From assembly GCF_001421505.1 (NCBI RefSeq), contig NZ_LMKL01000006.1:248001-312000 (forward strand): a DNA stretch of 64,000 nt, given 5' to 3'. The DNA comes from Sphingomonas sp. Leaf17 (GTDB taxonomy: Bacteria > Pseudomonadota > Alphaproteobacteria > Sphingomonadales > Sphingomonadaceae). The notes beneath the pieces are model-generated. The model was given only the letters and a program-made list of their open reading frames with translations. It did not search any database and was not told the DNA's origin. This document shows, in pieces, positions 50,422 to 59,188 of the stretch. Positions within the stretch are counted from its first letter, which is position 1; each line of letters opens with the position of its first letter. The position numbers and the translations under genes were made by a program.

Positions 50422-51810
50422 TTACAGCAGCGACGGTTGTTCGGGCGTGTCGACGGGATAGGCCTTTGCCGCCGGCCGCTCAACCCGCGCGTCGACCGCG
50501 CCGTCGCGGAAGTGGAGCGTCACCGCGCCCGCCGTCCGCGCCGCGCCGCGCGTCGCCAACGTTTCCGAGGAGCCACGCGCGGTGACGCGGGCATAGCCGC
50601 GATCAAGCACCGCGTCGGGGTTCAGCGACTTCACCAGCCGCCAGGTCGCGTCCAGCTGCGCCCGCCGCGCCTCGACCAGCCGCAGCAGCGTCGCCGGGCG
50701 CAACGCCCCGCCCGACCGGTCCAGCCCCCCGCGCGCGACCGTCACCCGCCGCTCCAAGCCCCGGTCGAGCCGCTGGCCCAGATCGTCGGCGCGCTGGCGT
50801 TGTGGCCCCAGCAACTGGTCGCGCTTGGGCATCACCCGCACCAGCGCGGTCAACTGTTCGCGCCCGCGCTCGGCATAGCGGCGGGCATAGCGTTCGATGC
50901 GCTGGCCGTGCGCGGCGATCGTCAGGCGCAGGTCGGCCAGCACCGGCACCGCGATTTCGGCGGCAGCGGTCGGCGTCGGCGCGCGCAGGTCGGCGGCGTG
51001 GTCGCACAGGGTCGTATCGGTCTCATGCCCCACCGCCGAAATGATCGGAATCGAGCAGGCGGCGACCGCGCGCACGACGACCTCCTCGTTGAACGCCCAC
51101 AGATCCTCGATCGAGCCACCGCCGCGCGCGACGATGACCAGATCGGGGCGCGGCACCGGGCCACCTTCGGCCAGCGCATCGAACCCGCGCACGGCGGCGG
51201 CGATCTCGGCCGCCGATCCCTCGCCCTGCACCTTCACCGGCCAGACGATGACATGGGTCGGGCAGCGATCCTCCAGCCGGTGGAGGATGTCGCGGATGAC
51301 CGCACCCGTGCCCGACGTCACCACCCCGATGACGCGCGGCAGGAAGGGCAGCGGCTTTTTCGCCGATGGCGCGAACAGCCCCTCGCCCGCCAGCTTCATC
51401 TTCAGCTTTTCGAGCAGCGCCATCAGCTGGCCCGCGCCGGCCAGTTCCATCCGTTCGATGACAATCTGGTATTTCGACCGGCCGGGATAGGTGGTCAGCT
51501 TGCCGGTGGCGATCACCTCGATCCCGTCCTGCGGCACGAAAGCGAGGCGCGCGGCCTGCCCCTTCCAGATGACGCCGTCGATGACCGCCGCATCGTCCTT
51601 CAACGCCATATAGGCATGGCCCGAGGCGACGCGCTTGTAGCCCGAAATCTCGCCGCGCAGGCGGACGTGGCCGAACTCGCCCTCCACCACGCGCTTCAGC
51701 TTGAACGCCAGCTCGCCGACCGACATCGCGGCGGCGTTGTCGCCGGGCGTGTCCTCGGCTACCAGCCGCGCGGAAAGCCCGTCGGGCGCGTCATCAGAAA
51801 GGTTTGCCAT
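50422..51810 (-). CDS. xseA: exodeoxyribonuclease VII large subunit
   Basis: XseA with XseB forms exonuclease VII, which degrades single-stranded DNA from both ends. The 462-residue protein has an OB-fold N-terminus ([21 protein letters not shown], then [20 protein letters not shown]), [20 protein letters not shown], the catalytic [19 protein letters not shown] and [31 protein letters not shown] (split: [19 protein letters not shown] and APTPTAAAE), then a long coiled coil and the C-terminal [10 protein letters not shown]. The start ATG (complement of 51808-51810) is chosen for its family-like N-terminus [11 protein letters not shown]; it shares the CATG with the purD start. xseB is not in the window. 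Confidence 0.94.
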
Positions 51811-53098
51811 GAACGTCCTGCTGCTGGGGTCGGGTGGTCGCGAACATGCGCTGGCGTGGAAGCTCGCCCAGTCGCCGACCTTACGTAAAGGCACCGATAC
51901 GCTGTATGCCGCGCCGGGCAACCCCGGCATCGCCGCCCACGCGACGATCGTGCCGCTCGACGCGACGGATCACGCGGCCGTCGTCGCCTTTGCGAAGGAC
52001 AAGGCCGTCGGGCTGGTCGTGATCGGCCCCGAAGCGCCGCTGGTCGACGGTCTCGCCGATTCCCTGCGCGCGGCCGGCGTGCCCGTCTTCGGTCCCGGCA
52101 AGGCAGCGGCGCAGCTGGAGGGGTCGAAGGGGTTCACCAAGGACCTGTGTACCCGCGCGAACATCCCGACCGCCGGCTATGCCCGCGTTGCCACGCTGGA
52201 CGCCGCGCGGATCGCGCTCGACCTGTTCGGCGCGCCGGTGGTGGTGAAGGCGGACGGGCTGGCGGCGGGCAAGGGCGTGACCGTCGCCATGACCCGCGCC
52301 GAGGCCGATGCCGCGATCGCCGACCTGTTCGCGGAAACCGGCGCGGAAGCGGTGATCGAGGAATTTCTGGAGGGCGAGGAGGTCAGCCTGTTCGTGCTGA
52401 CCGACGGCAATGCGCTGATGCCGTTCGGGTCGGCACAGGACCACAAGCGCGTCGGCGACGGCGATGTCGGCCCCAACACCGGCGGCATGGGTGCCTACAG
52501 CCCGGCCCGCGTGCTGACGCCCGCGCTGGAGGCGCAGGCGATCCGCGAGATCGTCGCGCCGACCGTGGCGGCGATGGCGATGGAGGGCATGCCCTTTTCC
52601 GGCGTCCTGTATGCCGGGCTGATGCTGACCGCGCAGGGGCCGAAGCTGATCGAGTACAACGCGCGCTTCGGTGACCCCGAATGTCAGGTGCTGATGCTGC
52701 GCTTCGCCGGCGACCTGCTCGAAACGCTGCTGGCGGTGGCCGAAGGGCGACTGGCCGACCTTGGCGGCGCGGCCTTCTATGACGATCCGGCGCTGAGCGT
52801 GGTGATGGCCGCGCGCGGCTATCCCGGCACACCGGCGGCGGGCGGCGCGATCGGCGGGATCGACGCGGCCGAGGCGACCGGTGCGATCGTGTTCCAGGCG
52901 GGTACGCGGGCGGGTGAAAACGGCATCGTGGCCAGCGGCGGCCGGGTATTGGCCGTCACCGCCACCGGCGCGACCGTCGCGCAGGCACAGGCCGCCGCCT
53001 ATCGCGCGGTCGACGCGCTGGACTTCACCGACGGTTTCTGCCGCCGCGACATCGGCTGGCGCGAAGTGGCGCGCGAGCGGGGTGACGGGCAGGCGTAG
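51809..53098 (+). CDS. purD: phosphoribosylamine-glycine ligase (GAR synthetase)
   Basis: PurD makes glycinamide ribonucleotide, step two of purine synthesis. It is 429 residues. Seen: [17 protein letters not shown] at the N-terminus, [37 protein letters not shown], the ATP-grasp core [17 protein letters not shown] and [32 protein letters not shown], and [15 protein letters not shown] with the metal-binding Asp-Pro-Glu. The start ATG is at 51809, preceded by AGAAAGG; the open frame upstream lies antisense to xseA. The start overlaps the divergent xseA start, a head-to-head overlap of the two initiation codons. Confidence 0.96.
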
Positions 53099-53121: not shown

Positions 53122-54195
53122 TCAGGCGGTCGGTGATGCCGTCGTAGCGCGAACCTGCGCATACAGCGCCTCGCAGCCGTCGAGCCAGCGGTCGTGGGTG
53201 AACAGGCGTTCGACGCGCGCCCTGGCGATGCGGCGGGGGATCGCCAGTGCTTCCGGGATCGCGCGGGCCAGCCCCGCCACGTCGCCGGGGTCGGCGAACC
53301 GCCCCACCTCCCCGACGACTTCGCGGGCCGCGCCCATATCGAATGCGGCGACCGGCAGGCCGCAGCTCATGGCCTCGATCGCGACGAGGCCGAAGGGTTC
53401 GTCCCAGCACGGCGTGAACAGGAACACGGACGCGCGGCCCAGTTCGGTGGCCAGCGCGGCTCCGTCCAAATGCCCGCCGTAGCGGATCGTCGGTCCCAGC
53501 AGCGGCGCGATCTCGGCGGCCCAATAGTCCGGGTCCTCGATCGTTCCGAAAACGGCCAGCGGCACGCCGGCCAGCATCGCCGCGCGGATCGCCAGATGCG
53601 TCCCCTTGTTGGGGGTAATCCGTCCGCACCACACCGCGCCGCCATCGCCCTCAGGCCGGTATGGCCAATTGGCGGGGTCGATGCCGTTGTGCAGGACCGA
53701 CGCTTCGGGCGCCGCGCCGTCCGGCCACCACGCGGCCATCTGCGTCGCCGATGTCACGGTCAGCCGGTGGGCGGGGCCGGCACTCGCCTTCACGAACCAG
53801 TGCAGCGCATCGAAGGGCGGAACGTGCAGCGAGGTGACGGTGGGCACGCGCGCGGTGCGCTCGGGCGCGATGGCGATACGGCTGAGGCTGTTGTTATGGA
53901 CCACGTCGAATCCGCCGGCGGCGATCCGGTCGCAGGCGGCGGCATAGCCTGTATCGACATGCGCGATCAGGGCTGCGGACCCGCGATGCTCGGCCCAGGG
54001 GAATGTGCGGTCGTAATGTTCGGCCAGCACCGGGTCGATCGTGAATCGGGGATCGCTGTCGCCGGCCGCGAACAGCACGACGTCGTGGCCGCGCTTCGTC
54101 AGACCGTCCGCCAGATACCAGCTATGCGCCTCCATCCCGCCCATGAACGGCTGGGCGATCGGCTGGCGGACATGGGCGAGCAGCGCGATCCTCAC
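53122..54195 (-). CDS. glycosyltransferase family 4 protein
   Basis: This is a 357-residue predicted GT-B glycosyltransferase. The N-terminus is RIALLAHVRQPIAQPFMGGM, followed by AHSWYLADGLTKRGHDVVLF, the usual start with a glycine-rich loop for the acceptor side; DVVHNNSL, HNGIDPANWPY and the donor-site EPFGLVAIEAMSCGLPVAA (Glu-x7-Glu) complete the family-4 pattern. The GTG start at 54195 overlaps the stop of the upstream GT2 gene by 4 bp (GTGA), and the open frame beyond it lies inside that gene. It is the last of four linked glycosyltransferase genes (58.3 to 53.1 kb). The sugar donor and acceptor cannot be read from sequence. Confidence 0.86.
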   Translation of the reverse strand: MRIALLAHVRQPIAQPFMGGMEAHSWYLADGLTKRGHDVVLFAAGDSDPRFTIDPVLAEHYDRTFPWAEHRGSAALIAHVDTGYAAACDRIAAGGFDVVHNNSLSRIAIAPERTARVPTVTSLHVPPFDALHWFVKASAGPAHRLTVTSATQMAAWWPDGAAPEASVLHNGIDPANWPYRPEGDGGAVWCGRITPNKGTHLAIRAAMLAGVPLAVFGTIEDPDYWAAEIAPLLGPTIRYGGHLDGAALATELGRASVFLFTPCWDEPFGLVAIEAMSCGLPVAAFDMGAAREVVGEVGRFADPGDVAGLARAIPEALAIPRRIARARVERLFTHDRWLDGCEALYAQVRATTASPTA

Positions 54196-55118
54196 GCCGC
54201 GACGCTGGCTGTCCTGGCGGCCGCGCGCGCCTCCAGCATGCGGATGACGGTGGCGGTGTTGGCATAGGGCTGGTGGCTCTGCTGCCCGGTCAGCGCGAGG
54301 TCGTCGGCGTCTGGAAGGCGCAGGATGCGGATCGGCCGCCCCGCCGTGTCGTCGATCAGCCCCATCAGCCGGAACGCATGCAGCCAGTGGCCCATCGTCC
54401 GGTAGCCCCAGCGCGCCTCGAACAGTTCCGCGTTGCGCACCACGCTGTCGATGTGGTGGACCGGCGGCATGTGGTGCGGATGATATTGGTGATGCGCCAG
54501 ACCGCCCCGGATCCACGCGATCGGGATACCGGCGGTGTCCAGCACCTTGCCGAAATCGGTATCCTCGCCGCCATAGCCGGCATAGCCCTCGTGGAAACCA
54601 CCGACGCGCAGGAACGTGTCGCGCCGCATCGCGAAGTTGAGCGACCAGAAGCAGCGATAGTCGGTGCACAGTTCGATACCGTCCGCCGGCGGACCGCGCC
54701 GGTCGGAATGGCGGACCGCGACCGAATCGAAGTCCTCGCTGCGCCAGCCGCCTTTAGTCGCACCGCCGGGCAGGTACAGCACTTCACCCATCAGCAGGCC
54801 GTCAAACGAGGCCGTATGCCGCGCATAGTCGGCGACCAGGTCGGGCGCGGGGATGCAGTCCATGTCGAGGAAGACCAGCACCTCGCCCGATGCCGCGCGC
54901 GCGGCGGCGTTGCGCGCGGCGGCGAGCGGCAGGGTGTCGCCGGCGATCATCATCTGGCGGATCGGGAACGGCGCATCGGGCAAGGCGTAGGCGGTATCCT
55001 GCATCACCGCGACTATCAGTTCGACCGGCATGGCGGACTGGCGCGTCAGGCCAAGGACAAGATTGTGGAGATGGTCGGGCCGGCCCTTGGCCAGCGTCAC
55101 GACGGAAACGGTCGGCAT
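54192..55118 (-). CDS. glycosyltransferase family 2 protein
   Basis: This is a 308-residue GT-A glycosyltransferase. Seen: SVVTLAKGRPDHLHNLVLGL at the N-terminus, the metal-binding VFLDMDCIPAP (DxD-type) near residue 82, then WSLNFAMRRDTFLRVGGF and GYGGEDTDFG (acid/base region ED), which is typical of the galactosyl/N-acetylgalactosaminyl-transferase-like branch of family 2. There is no membrane segment, so it probably works at the cytoplasmic face. It lies 13 bp after the GT28-like gene stop and overlaps the GT4 gene by 4 bp. Confidence 0.86.
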   Translation of the reverse strand: MPTVSVVTLAKGRPDHLHNLVLGLTRQSAMPVELIVAVMQDTAYALPDAPFPIRQMMIAGDTLPLAAARNAAARAASGEVLVFLDMDCIPAPDLVADYARHTASFDGLLMGEVLYLPGGATKGGWRSEDFDSVAVRHSDRRGPPADGIELCTDYRCFWSLNFAMRRDTFLRVGGFHEGYAGYGGEDTDFGKVLDTAGIPIAWIRGGLAHHQYHPHHMPPVHHIDSVVRNAELFEARWGYRTMGHWLHAFRLMGLIDDTAGRPIRILRLPDADDLALTGQQSHQPYANTATVIRMLEARAAARTASVAA

Positions 55119-55131
55119 TGTCAGGCTCCGG

Positions 55132-56265
55132 TCAGGATAGATGGGGGGTCGGAATGGATGGGGTGTCGGTCGGCCAGAGCCGCGCGGCCAGCGCCTCCAG
55201 CCAGTCGGCTGCGTCGGCGGCGGGCGCGTCCGCGATCATCGCGCGCTGGCGGTCGGGGCGATGACGGGCCAGCGTCTCCCCGATCGCGTTGGTCCAGGCA
55301 TCGGCGGACGAGGGTAGGTGCGGGCGGACGCACGCGACGCCGGCCGCCGCCAGCGCGTCGGCCTTGCGGTGCTGTTCGTCGAAATAGCGCCATTCGGGCA
55401 CCGCCAGCCACGGCCGCGCCGCCGCCAGGATCTGCTGACAGGTGGTGTTGCCGGTCGAGGCGATGACCAGATCGGCGGCGGCGATATGGTCGGCGGCGGT
55501 GTCGACCCAGCCGCGATGCTCGATATTGGCCAGCTCGGTCGCGTGCCAGTCGCGCACGACCGGGCCGATCGTGATCCAGCGGGCGTCCGGGCGGCTGCGC
55601 GCGCCGACGCCGAGCGGAGCCTGACCGAAACCGCTGCCGCCGCCGCCCGCCATGACGAGGATCATCTCGGCATCCTCGGCGACGCCGATCCGCAGGCGGG
55701 CCTGCGCGCGGTCGGGCACACGCGTGTCGACGCCAAGCCCGCCGGCAAAGCAGGTGCGGGCGCGCATGGCGGCGTCCCAGTCGGGCTGGGCCAGATCGGC
55801 GTGGAAGGCGGCGAGCAGCCCGGCCGCCCCGTCATAGGCGGCGCGGTGGCCGGCATCGCTGCGGTCGCCATGCTGCAGCACCTTGACGTGGGGCACGCTG
55901 CAGATGCGGGACAGTTGCGCGATCTCGGCGGACACGTCGCAGATCATCAGCGCAGGGTCGGCGCTGTCGAACCAGGTCGCGATCGTCGCCATTGCATGAC
56001 GGATGCCCGGCCAGCCGAGCGGCGCGCAGTGCAGCGTCGCCGGCGTCGGCACCCAGTCCATGCCGGCCGCCTCGCCGCCCGTCGCCTCGAACAGCGACGG
56101 GATGCGGATGATGGTGGCGTGCGCGGGCAGCGGCGGGAAGATGTCGTCGGCTGCACAGAAGATCGTCAGCGGCCGGTCGGTGGGCAAGGCGTGCGCGATC
56201 GCAGCGCAGCGTTCGGCATGGCCGCGTCCCTGATGATGGACGAAATAGCCGAACGGCCGCCTCAT
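55132..56265 (-). CDS. glycosyltransferase, GT28/MurG-like
   Basis: This is a 377-residue protein that starts MRRPFGYFVHHQGRGHAERC, the pattern of GT-B enzymes of the MurG/monogalactosyldiacylglycerol synthase type (a glycine-rich loop with HxxGxGHxxR). The C-terminal donor domain has MILVMAGGGGSGFGQAPLG and LVIASTGNTTCQQILAAARP, the characteristic S/T-G-x-N/T region, followed by QHRKADALAAAGV. The start ATG at 56265 overlaps the end of the SPS-like gene by 4 bp (ATGA); the upstream extension of the open frame is inside that gene. Donor and acceptor are unknown. Confidence 0.8.
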   Translation of the reverse strand: MRRPFGYFVHHQGRGHAERCAAIAHALPTDRPLTIFCAADDIFPPLPAHATIIRIPSLFEATGGEAAGMDWVPTPATLHCAPLGWPGIRHAMATIATWFDSADPALMICDVSAEIAQLSRICSVPHVKVLQHGDRSDAGHRAAYDGAAGLLAAFHADLAQPDWDAAMRARTCFAGGLGVDTRVPDRAQARLRIGVAEDAEMILVMAGGGGSGFGQAPLGVGARSRPDARWITIGPVVRDWHATELANIEHRGWVDTAADHIAAADLVIASTGNTTCQQILAAARPWLAVPEWRYFDEQHRKADALAAAGVACVRPHLPSSADAWTNAIGETLARHRPDRQRAMIADAPAADAADWLEALAARLWPTDTPSIPTPHLS

Positions 56266-58274
56266 GCCGCCACCTGCGCCGCATCCGGCATCGACATGAA
56301 GCGCGCCAGCCCCTCGATCACGCCCGCCGCGTGGAGCCGCGTCGCGCGGTACAGTCCGGCGCGGGGAGCAAGATCGGCCAGCTCGTCGCCGGCATTGGCA
56401 ACGACGATCGCAAAGCCGCATGCCGCCAGCATGTCGGCGTCGTTGCCGCTGTCGCCCGCCGCGATGCAGTCGGCCAGCGTCAAGCCCGTGCGCGCCGCAT
56501 AGGCCGCCACCGCCGCCGCCTTGCCCGCCGCCGGGGCCAGCACGTCGATCAGCCGCCCGTGGGAGAACACGACCCGCGCCGACAGATCCGCCGCCGCCAG
56601 CGCCGTGCGGATCGCCGTGGCGTCGGCGGCGGTGCCGAAGAAGCTCAGTTTGTGCGGGCCGGCGGTCGATTCCGGCTGCGGTGCGATGCCCAGCGGGGCC
56701 AGCGTACGGCGCACCGCCGGCAGATTCCAGTCCGCGTCCAGGGCGTCGGCATAGGCCGCCCATTCCTGCCAGCCCCCGGCGGCGTCGGCGATCATGATCC
56801 GGGTGCCGACATCGACGATCCAGCCATCGGGGTCGGGCAGATGCCACTGCGCCAGCACGCGACGCGCTTCGTCGAACGACCGGCCGGTCGCGACGACGAA
56901 CGGCAGGTCGCTGGCCCGCCGCCACCGGGCAAAGGCGCGGGCGGCATCGGCGCAACCGGTCAGCGTGTTGTCGATGTCGCTGGCCAGCAACGCAGGCCGG
57001 CGTGACAGCCCGGCATAGACCGCAACCGATCCCGCAGCATAGGCCGCCCAGTCATACCGCCCGACGCCCGCCAGCGCCGCCGCCCGGTACCGTGCGTGCG
57101 TCGCCGGATCGCTGATGATCGCCAGACAGGCATCGGCGATCGCGGCGTCGTCGCGCGGATCGACCAGCAGGCCGTGGCCGATGGTGGCCACGATCTCCGC
57201 CGGGCCGCCAGCCCGGGTCGCGACCACCGGCACGCCCATCGCCGCGGCCTCGATCAGGGTCAGGCCGAACGGCTCGTGCAGCGCGGGGTTGACGAACACC
57301 CCGCCCCGGCTGGCGCGGGCGTACAGCGCGGTCACGTCGGCCGCGTCATGCGCGGACGGCAGGGCGACCCGCCCGCACAGCGCCGGCGTGGCGCACAGGC
57401 CGAACAACGCGTCGCGCACCACCCGCTCCTCGTCCGAGGGTTGCCCGTCGTGCTGGCCGGCCAGGATCACGAGGTTGGCGGCATCGCGCAACAGGGCATT
57501 GCCGGCATAGGCACGGACCAGCGCGGCCAGGTTCTTCTTGGCGACCGGCCGGGCGATGGCAAGGATGATCGGCCGGTCGGGCGCGTCGAACCAGTCGTCC
57601 AGCCCGTCCGCCAGCGTCGTCGCGCCGGGCGCACCAGCCCGCCGCGGCACGCCGGGCGGCAGGCGGTGGATCCGGCCGTCGACGGATACGCCGTACGCCG
57701 CCACCTGCCGCTCCCCCTCGTCGCGGGTCGAAACGATCAGCGCATCGGCCTGCGCGATGGCGGCGCGTTCGTCGGCGATCCGCGCTTCGAGTGCGGCTGT
57801 ATCGCCTGCCCCCGACCCACGCTTGTCGATCGCCAGCGCGTGGGGGGTGTAGACGACCGGAATCCCGAACCGCCGCCGCGCCGCCATCGCCACCGCCGCC
57901 GCATCGGCGAAATGGGCGTGGATCACGTCCGGCAGGTCCGGCAGCCGCGACAGGTGCGCGCAGAACGCCTCGGTGAACGCCGGCAGATCGGCGGCCAGCC
58001 GTTCCTTTTCGAGATAGGCGGTGTTGGCGGTGGCGATCCGGTCGATCGTCACGCGATCGGTCACGCGCTCCTGCGCCTGCGCGTGGATCGCCGGCAGATG
58101 TGCGCCCCGGAACGCGCGGGTGACGATCGACACGCGCATCACCCCCGGCGACGCGGCCTGGGCGATGGCCGCGTCCAGGACATAGGCGATATGGCCCCCG
58201 GTATCCGCGGTAAAGCCGAACGCGATCGGCGGCGCTTTCAGGCAGCCCGCCAGAGCCAGATGCAGGATGAACAA
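56262..58274 (-). CDS. bifunctional GT4 glycosyltransferase / HAD phosphatase, sucrose-phosphate-synthase-like
   Basis: This is a 670-residue fusion (from a TTG at 58274; the frame is open to a GTG at 58373, so the start is uncertain). Residues 1 to about 425 are a GT-B glycosyltransferase with FTADTGGHIAYVLDAA (the DTGG motif of sucrose-phosphate and mannosylfructose-phosphate synthases), HAHFADAAAVA, YTPHALAIDKRG, LAIARPVAKKNLAALV and EPFGLTLIEAAAMGVPVVAT. Residues from about 430 form a HAD-IIB phosphatase of the sucrose-phosphatase type: SDIDNTLTG (D-x-D), VVATGRSFDEARRVL, HKLSFFGT and IAAGDSGNDADMLAACG, with the Lys/Asp residues intact. By family knowledge such enzymes make a phosphorylated disaccharide and then dephosphorylate it; here this is inferred. 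It is first in an operon with three other glycosyltransferases. Confidence 0.84.
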   Translation of the reverse strand: MFILHLALAGCLKAPPIAFGFTADTGGHIAYVLDAAIAQAASPGVMRVSIVTRAFRGAHLPAIHAQAQERVTDRVTIDRIATANTAYLEKERLAADLPAFTEAFCAHLSRLPDLPDVIHAHFADAAAVAMAARRRFGIPVVYTPHALAIDKRGSGAGDTAALEARIADERAAIAQADALIVSTRDEGERQVAAYGVSVDGRIHRLPPGVPRRAGAPGATTLADGLDDWFDAPDRPIILAIARPVAKKNLAALVRAYAGNALLRDAANLVILAGQHDGQPSDEERVVRDALFGLCATPALCGRVALPSAHDAADVTALYARASRGGVFVNPALHEPFGLTLIEAAAMGVPVVATRAGGPAEIVATIGHGLLVDPRDDAAIADACLAIISDPATHARYRAAALAGVGRYDWAAYAAGSVAVYAGLSRRPALLASDIDNTLTGCADAARAFARWRRASDLPFVVATGRSFDEARRVLAQWHLPDPDGWIVDVGTRIMIADAAGGWQEWAAYADALDADWNLPAVRRTLAPLGIAPQPESTAGPHKLSFFGTAADATAIRTALAAADLSARVVFSHGRLIDVLAPAAGKAAAVAAYAARTGLTLADCIAAGDSGNDADMLAACGFAIVVANAGDELADLAPRAGLYRATRLHAAGVIEGLARFMSMPDAAQVAA

Positions 58275-58453
58275 GATCGTGCCGTATCCGGCTGGAAAAG
58301 CGGCGACAACACGAGTCGTACTGATCCGTGATAGTCTGGATCGCACCAGCGGGAGCCGGTGCCGTCCGGCCACGCGATGGTTCTGCGATATTTGGTGCGG
58401 CGGCGCGCGTTCCGGCCTAGTGTCCGGTTCGCTTACAAAGAGGCTCAGTCACG

Positions 58454-59188
58454 ATGAACACCCCCGGCGCCGGCCCCGTCACGACGCTACACCTGATCCT
58501 GATCGCGATCCTCGCGGTACTGACGATCGCCATGATCGCGCGCGGCGTCATCCTGAAACGCCGCCGTGCCGAAGCGCAGGCCGTGCAGGACGAGGCGATC
58601 GAAAGCCAGACGGCCTCCGCCCCGGCTCCCGCGATCTCACCGCCCCCGGCGACCGAGGCGGAGGCGGTCGCGCCGCCGCCGCCGCCGCCCCCACCGCCAG
58701 CGTCTCCTCCGGCACCCGTACCGGCCGAACCGGTGGCGTCGCCCGAACCCGCGCCCGAACCCGCGCCGCGTGACGAGCCGCCCGCCCACGCCACGCTGGC
58801 CGACGAACCCGTCGCCGCGGTCGCGCCGTTCGACCCAAGCCCCGCTCCGCTCGTGCCGGAACCGGTCACACCCGACCCGGTGCCGGTCGCGGATATCGCG
58901 CCGGTCGCAGCCCCCGCCCCGACGCCACCCGCGCCCGTTGCCGATCCGGGCGACTGGCCGGTGACGACGCTGAAAGGTCTGGGGCCAAAGGTCGCGGCGA
59001 TGCTGGGGCAGCACGGCGTGACCACCATCGCCGACATGGCCGCGCTGGACACGCCGAGCGCGCAGGCCATCGACGCACAGCTTGGCGCGTTCACCGGCCG
59101 CATGGGCCGCGACCGCTGGATCGATCAGGCACAGTTGCTGGCGGCCGGCGACATCAAGGGGTTCGAGGCCGCGTTCGGCAAGTTGTGA
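58454..59188 (+). CDS. membrane-anchored helix-hairpin-helix protein
   Basis: This is a 244-residue protein. An N-terminal transmembrane helix (about residues 11-31, TLHLILIAILAVLTIAMIAR) is followed by a long Pro/Ala/Glu-rich region (about 55-165) and a C-terminal helix-hairpin-helix domain: VTTLKGLGPKVAAMLGQHGV, then TTIADMAALD and LGAFTGRMGRDRWIDQAQ. The HhH part matches the C-terminal extension seen in alphaproteobacterial NuoE and in small 5'-nuclease-like HhH proteins; it could bind DNA or nucleic acid near the membrane, which is inferred. It is divergent from the glycosyltransferase operon, with 179 bp between the starts. The low-complexity region would be disordered. Confidence 0.8.
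   Translation: MNTPGAGPVTTLHLILIAILAVLTIAMIARGVILKRRRAEAQAVQDEAIESQTASAPAPAISPPPATEAEAVAPPPPPPPPPASPPAPVPAEPVASPEPAPEPAPRDEPPAHATLADEPVAAVAPFDPSPAPLVPEPVTPDPVPVADIAPVAAPAPTPPAPVADPGDWPVTTLKGLGPKVAAMLGQHGVTTIADMAALDTPSAQAIDAQLGAFTGRMGRDRWIDQAQLLAAGDIKGFEAAFGKL

Follow-up and report, generated by a model that had tools for sequence, protein, structure and literature searches.

The subject of this analysis is a cassette of four glycosyltransferase genes in Sphingomonas sp. Leaf17, which lies on the minus strand at positions 53122-58274 of a 64,000-nucleotide stretch of contig NZ_LMKL01000006.1 (this whole stretch is referred to here as the window). An earlier note on this DNA, made from the sequence alone, had described four leftward genes in tight succession; their coordinates were confirmed, neighbouring genes overlap by 4 bp at two of the junctions and stand 13 bp apart at the third, and all four open reading frames are intact. 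The cassette and its upstream region are made up as follows.

56262..58274, minus strand: gene 1, a GT4-HAD fusion resembling sucrose-phosphate synthase and sucrose-phosphate phosphatase (SPS/SPP), with a DTGGH motif; TTG start at 58274, 670 aa
55132..56265, minus strand: gene 2, a GT-B glycosyltransferase of the GT1/GT28 superfamily; 377 aa, ATGA 4-bp overlap with the preceding gene
54192..55118, minus strand: gene 3, a GT2 glycosyltransferase with a galactosyltransferase-like PF02709 C-terminus; 308 aa, 13-bp gap to the preceding gene
53122..54195, minus strand: gene 4, a GT4 glycosyltransferase; GTG start at 54195, 357 aa, GTGA 4-bp overlap with the preceding gene
58275..58453, minus strand: upstream intergenic region of the cassette; no EcfG-type promoter better than chance

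Conservation of the four-gene operon

The operon is real and conserved. Homologous loci were defined as the best 80 of 229 GT4-HAD relatives obtained from a scan of a genome collection, and since the four genes stand in the same order and direction in 71 of these 80 the arrangement is not a matter of chance; the treatment of the genes as a unit in the earlier note is borne out by this check of gene order in relatives. Four of the 71 (L082, L083, L086 and L092) have other genes before the last cassette gene, the last gene is inverted in a further five loci, and one or two cassette genes are missing in four, two of them at contig ends. The four proteins have also diverged together: for the 63 loci in which all four genes were called at no less than 70% length, plus the window, the distance matrices agree with a Mantel r of 0.92 - 0.95 and none of 500 permutations gave a value as high. 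The cassette is found in Sphingomonas, Sphingobium, Novosphingobium, Erythrobacteraceae, Paracoccus and other Rhodobacterales and several Acetobacteraceae, with flanks that vary by lineage, and plasmid records yielded 29 matches, 24 of which cover at least 80% of the query. At E <= 1e-60 the GT4-HAD protein was present in 30 of 296 sampled genomes of the window's order, the window's own being counted.

A variety of related arrangements were seen at greater distance. In L146-L148 the GT4 relative is divergent and the GT1/GT28-type gene convergent, and in a Methylobacterium cluster (L121, 6900-14119) and the similar L141 (3290-10502) a set of this type is joined to a GT2-GT4 pair that is 74 - 78% identical to that of the window, which suggests that parts of such cassettes have been exchanged. 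L139, from another class, has a version with the first three genes, and a Paracoccus yeei plasmid (L122, 8001-11159) has, within the part of it that was covered, just the first and the last cassette gene, beside a replication gene. Within the same class as the window, L142 (3433-9803) and L144 (4502-10707) hold relatives of the GT4, GT2 and GT1/GT28-type genes with no GT4-HAD match, accompanied by another GT2 and by a PIG-L deacetylase, which was checked against a profile in L142, L144 having in addition an acyl-CoA dehydrogenase-like gene and a methyltransferase gene; possibly these two clusters specify another such glycan.

In the window, the convergent purD (51809-53098, plus strand) lies where the operon ends. 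A profile scan of ten flanking proteins identified purD, ClpB, a TonB receptor, an M23 peptidase, exonuclease VII, a short-chain dehydrogenase, ferrochelatase, a molybdopterin-binding protein and an HhH protein, with one protein lacking a match. No flippase, polymerase, priming transferase or further glycosyltransferase was found among these ten, the rest of the genome not having been searched, which agrees with the earlier remark that polymerase and flippase are missing alongside. The HhH protein (58454-59188) weakly resembles the PRK12373 and PRK12278 models in their C-terminal parts (49.5 and 42.5 bits, far below the cut-offs), and no connection between it and the cassette was found.

The GT4-HAD fusion and its partner transferases

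Judged by its sequence the product of gene 1 is SPS-like, but its identity as an SPS is not established. It carries the Pfam domains S6PP (PF05116, 163.8 bits against a cut-off of 20.3) and Glycos_transf_1, and in a search with SPS profiles, as the earlier note had advised, its best NCBIfam model is SPS_N; it missed both equivalog cut-offs, scoring 290.5 bits against 576 for SPS (TIGR02472) and 124 bits against 209.75 for the SPP-like fused domain (TIGR02471). The TIGR02472 cut-off was exceeded in none of 240 sampled genomes of the class. The predicted structure has a mean predicted local distance difference test (pLDDT) score of 88.8, with residues 12-26, just before the His of DTGGH, below 50; its GT part matches HoSPS, TeSPS, MshA and sucrose synthase and its HAD part matches the SPP structure 1s2o. 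Pfam domains, structural matches and conserved residues agree with the SPS/SPP-like character that had been claimed for the fusion.

The roles of the catalytic and phosphate-contact residues were taken from the relevant passages of PMC7264703, and the transfer of TeSPS numbering to window positions, including the equation of TeSPS Gln51 with window His28, was made by inference. In the HAD domain, the motifs of which had been called intact, D433, D435, T463, K542, D608 and D612 are kept in the window and in all 80 homologous loci. Whilst in the GT4 domain His145, Glu334, K90, R242 and K247 are kept in 80 of the 80 loci and R165 in 79, the Gln of DTGGQ (HoSPS Q35) gives way to His (DTGGH) in the window and throughout the 80 loci, so that of the substrate residues expected of the SPS class the catalytic and aligned basic ones are retained and this Gln is not. 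The position of HoSPS Y128 is Phe in every one of the 80. His occurs with Tyr at these two positions in the more distant L121, L139-L141 and L146-L148, and the SPS-type proteins of L124 (beside GH100 and PfkB genes) and L145 have Gln and Tyr, Gln being present in HoSPS too. The enzyme is probably built to take a phosphorylated acceptor and to strip the phosphate, and the acceptor may be something other than fructose-6-phosphate. Because of the missed equivalog cut-offs and the His in place of the Gln of DTGGQ, a sucrose- or mannosylfructose-type product is not established.

Gene 2 had been described as GT28/MurG-like. It has a marginal GT28 C-terminal domain (PF04101, 22.3 bits against a cut-off of 22) and a predicted structure (mean pLDDT 89.8) with the GT-B fold, and to that extent the description holds loosely; but CalG3 comes first in the structural ranking, natural-product transferases lead at a template modelling (TM) score of ~0.6, and MurG is at rank 41. 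The MurG equivalog score is 16.3 bits against a cut-off of 250.25. A MurG-like lipid-linked step by gene 2 was considered and finds no support in this low score or in the position of CalG3 above MurG. Gene 3 matches PF02709, PF10111 and PF00535 and gene 4 has the Pfam domains of GT4.

Decoration genes in relatives and the link to the stress response

In 29 of the 80 loci the cassette is joined by a pyruvyltransferase (PF04230, 87.4 bits) and a second GT2; 27 of these 29 bear sphingomonad names, the other two being L039 (labelled Microvirga) and L071 (labelled Arthrobacter). Both of the latter have the six-gene Sphingomonas form and their labels may be wrong. A sulfotransferase (PF13469, 76.4 bits) is found in 32 loci, among them three Erythrobacteraceae, also members of the Sphingomonadales (L103, L110 and L111); it is divergent in 27 of the 32, with the match ending 103 - 308 bases upstream. 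The two genes never occur together (0/80), a mutual exclusion that is confounded with kinship, and 19 loci have neither, at least three of these being cut by contig ends. The window copy has no decoration gene, and queries with both decoration genes were unmatched in the genome of the window strain, a search that had no positive control, so the empty answer alone shows nothing. Neighbours in the relatives were clustered from codon-based gene calls, clustering of all open reading frames being too noisy at this G+C. Stress-type genes recur in the flanks, with a Crp/Fnr regulator in 20 of the 80 loci, catalase in six, an HWE histidine kinase in five and LigD in three; no flippase, polymerase or priming transferase was recognised by eye in the 28 most recurrent flank clusters, only some of which were profile-checked.

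A link to the general stress response comes from Sphingomonas melonis Fr1, in which genes #3506-#3509, each overlapping the preceding gene, belong to the printed top 50 of genes regulated by EcfG at low stress; in the absence of ecfG their log2 ratios are -3.3, -3.4, -3.7 and -4.3, respectively (PMC6599016). EcfG dependency of #3505 was confirmed by a promoter-lacZ fusion (PMC6599016), and the passages on #3505-#3509 in that paper assign no product or pathway to them. The 24-25-mers printed for #3506-#3509 were sought in 87 loci and in the minus strand of the window. At a Sphingomonas aquatilis locus (L070) they match with 1, 2, 1 and 0 mismatches, all inside the cassette, and the printed distances, added by hand, lead to L070 positions 10016, 11155, 12078 and 13148, which are the starts of the GT1/GT28-type, GT2, GT4 and pyruvyltransferase genes (the GT4 start was extrapolated by two residues, in agreement with the gene called in L071). 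The cassette thus appears to correspond to Fr1 #3505-#3508, by way of printed tags mapped on L070 and not of the Fr1 genome itself. Of the four tags, #3508 alone has its best window site within the cassette (position 54620, in the GT2 gene, 4 mismatches); those of the remaining three, with 7, 5 and 5 mismatches, are outside it. In the open-licence literature, supplements being outside the search, no paper on this operon was found besides PMC6599016. The EcfG link, the pyruvyltransferase and sulfotransferase partners in relatives and the plasmid copies are new beyond the earlier note.

Promoter sequences were examined in the same relatives. Over the 370 bases around the start, 29 of 80 sequences contain the pattern GGAAC-N15-18-NGTT, and 50 shuffles gave a mean of 1.2. 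The Fr1-like form GGAAC-N16-20-GTT, sought within 150 bases before the cassette, was found at 24 of 79 loci, whereas 20 of 238 other intergenic gene starts taken from these loci had it; L049 was left out as it had no upstream sequence. A GGANAC or GGGAGC element is common to many of the Sphingomonas loci instead, and its CGTT ends 22 - 34 bases before the start, with 24 of 28 sites at 26 - 29. This element had been noticed before its occurrences were counted, and a broader pattern (28/79 loci, 4/238 control starts) was written after the sequences had been viewed and is not counted as a test. The Fr1-like motif is enriched before the cassette of relatives, but in a minority of loci, and an EcfG-type promoter is no more than a candidate feature of these loci. 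The genome of the window strain has a NepR with a GGAAC-N16-GGTT site upstream.

The proposed product and its alternatives

The four genes probably act jointly to build a small sugar chain. The family and conserved residues of gene 1 suggest that its GT4 domain would move a sugar from a nucleotide sugar onto a sugar phosphate, and that the fused HAD domain would then remove the phosphate to leave a free disaccharide or glycoside, which the GT1/GT28-type, GT2 and GT4 enzymes would extend. In relatives only, the pyruvyltransferase with the further GT2, or the sulfotransferase, may act on the product; pyruvylation and sulfation would both add negative charge, and an anionic solute is proposed for that reason. 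The matching operon of Fr1 has been shown in print to require the stress sigma factor EcfG, and since the matching genes in this relative need the stress switch the product may be a new kind of protective sugar, its likely role being that of a protective or osmotic solute. The reaction, the product and the product's solubility and role are all things that we infer.

An undescribed oligosaccharide or glycoside had already been suggested in the earlier note, and a soluble one is still the best reading. That the cassette makes a stress-linked, soluble, cytoplasmic oligosaccharide belonging to the alphaproteobacterial general stress response is a proposition on which our judgement is evenly balanced. 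More tentatively, it may be the case that many Alphaproteobacteria share an EcfG-switched stress metabolite of a class not yet described, a short oligosaccharide started by a sugar-phosphate GT-phosphatase with altered acceptor recognition, its genes spread as a mobile cassette and its negative charge supplied by pyruvylation or sulfation according to lineage. Many EcfG-dependent genes are without known function, as PMC6599016 states for ~40% of the 119 genes added after stress; four of the 50 most EcfG-dependent listed genes of a model leaf bacterium would, through the cassette, be tied to a single conserved pathway, for which a stress-dependent oligosaccharide is predicted.

A number of observations weigh against a stress-linked solute. 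EcfG control is in print for the Fr1 counterparts and not for the window strain, where the best site for the EcfG motif upstream of the cassette has 2 mismatches and was equalled or bettered in 157 of 300 shuffles; the GGANAC/GGGAGC element is likewise not in that upstream region. As for the strict CGTT form of the promoter, no more than 9 of 79 loci have it, compared with 5 of 238 control starts. In PMC6599016 #3505 is placed with the putative indirect EcfG targets; #3509 is annotated as an exopolysaccharide protein in Fr1, and the assignment of #3505 to the GT4-HAD gene follows from its numbering and overlap. The tags fit the locus labelled S. melonis AS2.3 (L051) poorly, with 7, 5, 6 and 6 mismatches and the last site not within the cassette, and the word 'glycosyl' is absent from the main texts of two other EcfG papers (PMC7083833 and PMC4814048). 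Many other recurrent flank families are, judged by eye, not stress genes. The P. yeei plasmid copy (L122) has altered acceptor- and HAD-site residues with its two cassette genes.

The alternative that survives best, though it is rather unlikely, is that an exopolysaccharide or glycolipid receives its repeating unit or its cap from the cassette, the genes for export and anchoring being elsewhere in the genome. The pyruvyltransferase beside the cassette in more than a third of the loci (29/80) and the annotation of #3509 both point in this direction, and the sulfotransferase partners (32/80) could act on surface glycans. However, an acceptor that is a free sugar phosphate would suit the intact phosphatase better than one carried on a lipid, and the flippase, polymerase and priming transferase of such a system were found neither among the ten proteins scanned beside the window copy nor by eye in the 28 most recurrent flank clusters. 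It is improbable that the GT4-HAD carries out ordinary sucrose or mannosylfructose synthesis and that the other three transferases are unrelated to it: SPS_N is its best NCBIfam model and SPS and SPP are among its closest structures, but both cut-offs were missed, DTGGH replaces DTGGQ in 80 of 80 loci and the other three genes co-occur and co-diverge with it. That the cassette of the window strain is a decaying or differently regulated remnant of a stress operon, as its chance-level EcfG motif and the unmatched decoration-gene queries (run without a positive control) might suggest, is very doubtful given four open frames, a first enzyme with its catalytic residues present and 19 other loci that also lack both decoration genes, at least three of them cut by contig ends.

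The proposed soluble stress-linked oligosaccharide can be set beside a number of known systems. The cassette enzyme is like the bacterial SPS/SPP enzymes in its GT4 and HAD-IIB domains, catalytic His and Glu, aligned basic residues and structural matches, but unlike them in missing the equivalog cut-offs, in having DTGGH for DTGGQ and Phe at HoSPS Y128, and in adjoining three further glycosyltransferases. In Agrobacterium, mannosylfructose-phosphate synthase and phosphatase produce an osmolyte by transfer to a sugar phosphate followed by dephosphorylation, a likeness of logic; unlike the cassette, that system has separate genes and is not known to include elongating transferases. Fr1 #3505-#3509 are alike in that the #3506-#3509 tags and the distances between gene starts fit a cassette with a pyruvyltransferase, which the window copy does not have. 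In contrast to a Wzx/Wzy-type exopolysaccharide cluster, the window copy is not accompanied by a flippase, a polymerase or a priming transferase as far as its ten scanned neighbours go. Sulfotrehalose and mannosylglycerate are negatively charged small carbohydrates that serve as solutes (PMC1224877), and they provide precedents, by likeness of logic only, for an anionic sugar solute of the kind proposed here.

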